From: an uncultured Pelagibacteraceae bacterium
Lineage (GTDB): Bacteria > Pseudomonadota > Alphaproteobacteria > Pelagibacterales > Pelagibacteraceae
Direction: 5' to 3'
NCBI GenBank assembly: GCA_902536385.1
Contig: CACAWY010000001.1
Coordinates: 1 to 64,000, forward strand
Length of the DNA: 64,000 bases
The position numbers were made by a program, and so were the translations under genes. The notes under the pieces were generated by a model, which was not told where the DNA came from, searched no databases, and saw nothing but the letters and a program-made list of their open reading frames with translations. Below, piece by piece: positions 2,970 to 3,525 of the stretch (positions are counted from its first letter, which is position 1; every line of letters begins with the position of its first letter).

Positions 2970-3046
<77 letters not shown>

Positions 3047-3051
3047 ATAAA

Positions 3052-3255
3052 TTATTTTTTTTTAATATTTATTGCTTGTAATTTATCCTTTTCCTCTTTG
3101 ATATCGTAAACGATTTTTTGATCCTCTTTTAAAACTCTCAATTTAGATTGTTCCAAAGCTGATACGTGAAGAAAAATATCTTTTTTTGTTTTGTCGTCTT
3201 TTATAAAGCCATAACCCTTTTTAGAGTTAAACCATTTGATTTTACCTGATGGCAT
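3052..3255 (-). CDS. Cold-shock-domain protein (CspA family)
   Basis: Small single-stranded nucleic-acid-binding protein, a probable RNA chaperone in the cytoplasm. The 67-residue product holds the cold-shock domain with RNP1 (KGYGFI, 13-18) and RNP2 (DIFLHV, 26-31) and an N-terminal GKIKWFN. An ATG five codons upstream (3270) is possible, but a Shine-Dalgarno AGAGGA lies about seven bases before the ATG at 3255 and the family normally begins just before GKIKWF, so 3255 is preferred. It lies 25 bases after rpsU on the same strand. Confidence 0.93.
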   Translation of the reverse strand: MPSGKIKWFNSKKGYGFIKDDKTKKDIFLHVSALEQSKLRVLKEDQKIVYDIKEEKDKLQAINIKKK

Positions 3256-3280: not shown

Positions 3281-3475
3281 TTAGTATCTATTTTTAAGTT
3301 TCTGGAGTTTTTTTATTCTCTTAAGATTTTCTGTCTGAACTCTTTTTTTTCTTTCGGAAGGTTTCTCGTAAGTGCTCTTCATTTTCATCACTTTGAAAAA
3401 ACCCTCTTTTTGAAGTTTTCTCTTCAAGACTCTTATAGCCTGTTCTACATTATTATCTTTTACGTCTATTTTAAT
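3281..3475 (-). CDS. rpsU: 30S ribosomal protein S21 (apparent ATT start codon)
   Basis: Small basic protein of the 30S subunit that helps initiation. The frame encodes 64 residues resembling alphaproteobacterial S21: VKDNNVEQAIRVLKRKLQKE, then YEKPSERKK and a Lys/Arg-rich tail. No in-frame ATG, GTG or TTG occurs before the conserved region: an in-frame TAA lies four codons upstream of the proposed start. A strong GGAGG (3481-3485) sits five bases before an ATT codon, which gives the right N-terminal length, so ATT is the best-supported start. ATA two codons later is the only close alternative. Gene finders restricted to ATG/GTG/TTG will miss or truncate it. Confidence 0.88.
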   Translation of the reverse strand: MKIDVKDNNVEQAIRVLKRKLQKEGFFKVMKMKSTYEKPSERKKRVQTENLKRIKKLQKLKNRY

Positions 3476-3480
3476 AAAAA

Positions 3481-3485
3481 CCTCC
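3481..3485 (-). promoter_or_regulatory. Shine-Dalgarno site of rpsU that fixes the non-standard start
   Basis: GGAGG on the minus strand, one of the strongest ribosome-binding sites in this window. The five-base gap to the ATT codon is ideal. No standard start codon lies at suitable spacing downstream in the S21 frame. Confidence 0.8.
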
Positions 3486-3525
3486 GATTAATTTCAAGGT
3501 AGTTACCATCTGTTAGTTAATTTGT

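Follow-up and report, generated by a model that had tools for sequence, protein, structure and literature searches.

The AUU start of rpsU, the gene for ribosomal protein bS21, is strongly supported by sequence comparison across the order Pelagibacterales (SAR11), and it is paired with a very strong Shine-Dalgarno (SD) sequence. We suggest that the weak start and the strong SD together make S21 output conditional, most likely through negative feedback by S21-deficient ribosomes, a reading to which we assign a probability of about one half. The order, some of whose members rank among the ocean's most abundant cells, has preserved this start, and the ribosomal protein that the gene encodes is located next to the anti-SD. 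Both the ribosome and initiation factor IF3 discriminate against AUU; IF3 rejects AUU, AUA, and AUC. Gene finders miss AUU starts, and to our knowledge very few natural ones have been documented.

A non-AUG start on rpsU

In the window (the whole 64,000-nucleotide stretch of DNA analysed here), rpsU occupies positions 3281..3475 of the minus strand and runs from an ATT start (3473..3475) to a TAA stop (3283-3281), encoding a 64 amino acid product that matches the Pfam domain Ribosomal_S21 (PF01165) at 53.1 bits. The SD, GGAGG (3481..3485, minus strand), pairs with the anti-SD at -10.7 kcal/mol. An in-frame TAA (3488..3490, minus strand) closes the frame, with only TCG GAG GTT TTT between it and the ATT. 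The AUU start, the GGAGG five bases before it, and the TAA four codons upstream had all been described in a first-pass annotation of this DNA, and all are borne out by the letters of the window and by the relatives; the gene end given there, 3487, takes in the SD, and the coding part ends at 3475.

The order of genes along the direction of transcription is L31, trcR, rpsU, a cold-shock gene, tRNA-Met(CAU), and typA. The upstream gene, trcR (PF06242; 3526..4110, minus strand), has its TAG stop 50 bases before the rpsU start. Downstream of rpsU are the cold-shock domain gene (3052..3255, minus strand) and the tRNA-Met(CAU) (2970..3046, minus strand), which resembles an initiator tRNA-fMet and follows rpsU in 124 of 167 loci. 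The anticodon stem of this tRNA reads TCAGG/CCTGA (A-U, G-C, G-C), and the same stem is present in 123 of the 124 tRNA-bearing loci; the E. coli initiator tRNA has three G-C pairs at the corresponding place.

A search of the genus with the S21 family gave matches in 134 of 169 genomes. The start codon in 88 aligned loci is ATT (85), ATA (2), or ATC (1). Among 124 distinct sequences of the genus, unevenly sampled from genomes that are mostly single-cell or metagenome assemblies and that include named single-cell genomes, it is ATT in 119, ATA in 3, and ATC in 2, and never ATG, GTG, or TTG. The non-AUG start is thus conserved (124/124 in the genus) in the alignment of upstream rpsU DNA across SAR11 that the first-pass annotation had proposed, and a read error at the ATT is ruled out by the recurrence of the codon in many independent genomes. 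Other genera of the family have ATT in 30 of 30 loci, while the sister family has ATA in 30 of 30 loci, after AAGGAGG, and in 5 further ones (35 in total). Seven relatives, all in genus g4, carry ATG at exactly the position of the ATT, which pins that position as the start. Apart from these seven, no canonical codon is found at the homologous N-terminus, and this is kept among relatives. Isoleucine codons just inside the same rpsU genes are mostly ATA (194, against 45 ATT and 8 ATC), so that ATT at the start is kept for a reason other than coding isoleucine. This codon usage and the upstream stop together rule out the ATT as an ordinary isoleucine codon of a longer frame.

Are AUU starts generally tolerated in SAR11? 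The starts of 16 neighbouring gene families in 80 named loci are ATG (914), TTG (70), and GTG (54), and the few per cent left over include rows that are misaligned, typA accounting for most of these. When 227 orthologues are compared between two contigs of the genus (300-390 kb), 9 have none of the canonical starts close to the conserved N-terminus, and rpsU is the sole real protein-coding case among them; the rest are a prfB frameshift site, 23S rRNA, antisense, and alignment overrun. These two comparisons rule out a general tolerance. Weak starts are the rule for rpsU in the wider class Alphaproteobacteria: 70 loci have GTG (38), TTG (12), ATG (14), or none of these three (6), and a stricter choice of start gives ATC in 5, ATA in 2, and CTG in 1. 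A phylum sample consisting mostly of other Pseudomonadota has ATG at rpsU in 22 of 26 cases, and the control gene rpsR in Alphaproteobacteria has ATG at 22 of 24 readable starts. The rpsU start is also relevant to the question of why pelagiphages have an S21 of their own; the two phage genes checked are free of AUU, with ATG in HTVC008M and TTG in Mosig. A scan of viral_contigs with the S21 of the window found no relative.

Downstream of the trcR stop and upstream of the rpsU SD lies a conserved element, TGGTAACTACC (3498..3508, minus strand; family form TGNTAACTANC), which is seen in the leaders of relatives. A weaker form occurs in other genera and in the sister family (TGGTAAAAACC), and one further exact copy of TGNTAACTANC is all that 390 kb of a relative contain. 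Neither an upstream frame nor a -10 promoter agrees well with the pattern of conserved and variable positions in the element. RNAalifold finds no conserved fold in 67 diverse rpsU leaders (0.0 kcal/mol), which rules out an SD hidden by conserved RNA structure.

The start codon and the SD change together

The 3' end of the 16S rRNA in SAR11 carries an intact anti-SD, GGATTACCTCCTT. On one 390-kb contig of a relative, from which our SD ranks are taken, the pairing of rpsU with the anti-SD (-11.5 kcal/mol) is the second strongest of 219 genes, the median being -0.9; GGAGG is present in 0.9% of these genes and GGAG or GAGG in 5.9%. One of the strongest SDs in an SD-poor genome therefore belongs to a gene whose start is of the rejected class.

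We examined 55 further loci, mostly from genus g4, with three from other genera. The 48 non-AUG starts (ATT 46, ATC 1, ACG 1) all have an SD of -9.3 to -13.1 kcal/mol, while the SD energy is above 0 in every one of the 7 loci that start with ATG, the strong SD being lost. In the first-pass annotation, ATG in relatives was to be the mark of a read error; such relatives do occur, but all seven are also without an SD and the ATT is not a read error. In a tree of the flanking DNA (built without leader and start, on a small sample and with moderate support) the 7 ATG loci fall in one group (95/90), which also holds the locus L527. L527 combines an ACG start with a strong SD and is nested among the AUG relatives that are without an SD, so that at least two joint changes of start and SD are needed. 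We infer that both features were lost in g4 and then either regained with ACG or lost a second time. The weak start and the strong SD of SAR11 rpsU thus appear, from these loci, to behave as one unit. Across Alphaproteobacteria as a whole the linkage is absent: SDs are common there, and they are no stronger with weaker starts.

Feedback, fixed output, or sensing of IF3

How might such a unit work? A very strong SD would hold the rpsU mRNA on the 30S subunit and make the weak start usable, and this start (AUU in most cases, otherwise AUA, AUC, or ACG) would work only with the strong SD. In 30S subunits without S21, the anti-SD region would be less encumbered and the subunit less dependent on IF3. 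Subunits of this kind would initiate best on rpsU mRNA, so that S21 is replenished, and S21-replete ribosomes would do so poorly. Dependence of the start codon on the SD would sharpen sensing of the Flavobacterium type. In F. johnsoniae, rpsU mRNA with its strong SD is translated better by ribosomes without S21, and the formation of 30S complexes without the C-terminus of S21 does not depend on IF3 (PMC9976891). It is tempting to go further and see in SAR11 rpsU a two-part switch, in which a rejected start and a near-unique strong SD are read by S21-deficient 30S subunits; such a switch would be a ribosome-sensing feedback with a non-AUG start, evolved outside Bacteroidota and acquired or lost as a whole, a proposal that we put forward tentatively. 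Counting against feedback are the clade with AUG and no SD, which lives without the device, the finding that SDs across other Alphaproteobacteria are no stronger with weaker starts, and the apparent absence from SAR11 of a tyrosine (Tyr54) that matters in Flavobacterium S21. If the feedback is true, the same clade is a natural control, and SAR11 would belong to a second phylum where S21-less ribosomes are a regulatory signal.

The start and SD could instead be a fixed setting, in which AUU and a strong SD fix S21 output relative to the surrounding genes with no feedback. An AUU start limits the expression of E. coli pcnB (PMC9410913), and in Staphylococcus aureus the non-canonical starts of cvfC1 (AUU) and ccpN (AUA) lower yield and carry extended SD motifs (PMC13009471). 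The 7 AUG loci without an SD could attain a similar output by another route. However, AUG with a weaker SD would be a simpler path to low output, and low output alone does not readily account for a rejected start combined with one of the top SDs. We regard a purely fixed setting as unlikely.

The first-pass annotation had linked the start to IF3, whose level would control S21 synthesis by rejecting AUU and so tie S21 supply to initiation fidelity. The model for such a link is infC, which starts with AUU in E. coli, where IF3 regulates its own synthesis, and with AUA or AUC in other bacteria. Part of this proposal stands: all 124 starts in the genus (AUU, AUA, AUC) are of the class that IF3 rejects, and IF3 is encoded in these SAR11 genomes. 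IF3 also acts as a repressor of non-canonical starts in infC and in sigR, the latter being a GTC start in Streptomyces (PMC5472188). However, infC has a GTG start directly after the thrS stop both in the window's genus and in g4 (e.g., L289, L495), which places the AUU-type start on rpsU and not on infC; the infC loop, to judge from these starts, is absent from the two SAR11 genera checked, and the link has no matching IF3 loop there. The sister family, whose infC has an ATA start, may have retained the loop; most other Alphaproteobacteria sampled have ATA or ATC. The ACG and AUG loci mean that the codon class of rpsU is not fixed, and rejection by IF3 may be only the means and not the signal. 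That so strong an SD stands in an SD-poor genome speaks for S21 feedback no less than for IF3 sensing, and on our analysis S21 feedback as in Flavobacterium seems to fit better; IF3 sensing strikes us as rather improbable. Feedback, fixed output, and IF3 sensing are nevertheless compatible with one another.

It is very improbable that translation begins elsewhere, be it at an ATG further downstream, at the ATA that forms the third codon, or by re-initiation following a short upstream frame, which in some relatives reaches or crosses the start region. Most loci retain the in-frame stop upstream, the first internal ATG would cost half of the S21 domain, GGAGG lies 5 bases from the ATT versus 11 from codon 3, and ATG replaces exactly the ATT codon in the 7 relatives.

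Comparison with known systems

The conditional output that we propose for SAR11 rpsU has counterparts of several kinds. Like the infC/IF3 system, it places a rejected class of start codon on a gene of the translation machinery. In contrast to that system, where IF3 controls its own synthesis, the gene here is rpsU, SAR11 infC has GTG in the genera checked, and the SAR11 loop is putative. The sigR gene (PMC5472188) and the pair cvfC1/ccpN (PMC13009471) share with SAR11 rpsU a conserved non-canonical start and, for the S. aureus pair, an extended SD as well. They are other genes in other phyla, and their starts were tested experimentally, whereas the SAR11 start is known from sequence. E. coli pcnB likewise has an AUU start on a chromosomal gene other than infC, but it is not a ribosomal protein gene, and the start of SAR11 rpsU, by contrast, is conserved through an order.

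The closest parallel for feedback by S21-deficient ribosomes is the autoregulation of rpsU in Bacteroidota (F. johnsoniae and others, PMC9976891). As in that system, the rpsU SD of SAR11 is among the strongest in a genome with few SDs and an intact anti-SD, on the evidence of the one 390-kb contig. SAR11 differs in belonging to Alphaproteobacteria and in adding a non-AUG start. It also appears to be without Tyr54, a residue of Flavobacterium bS21 that helps to hold the 16S tail and that Chlorobia are without as well (PMC9976891); the position corresponds to Arg/Ile in SAR11 by its offset to 7jil_z, in a weak alignment (E 0.005). No earlier report of a link between SAR11 rpsU and AUU was found in the open-access literature searched. 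Non-canonical starts and rpsU feedback are each of a known kind; what would be new is to have both on one gene, order-wide and lost as a unit.
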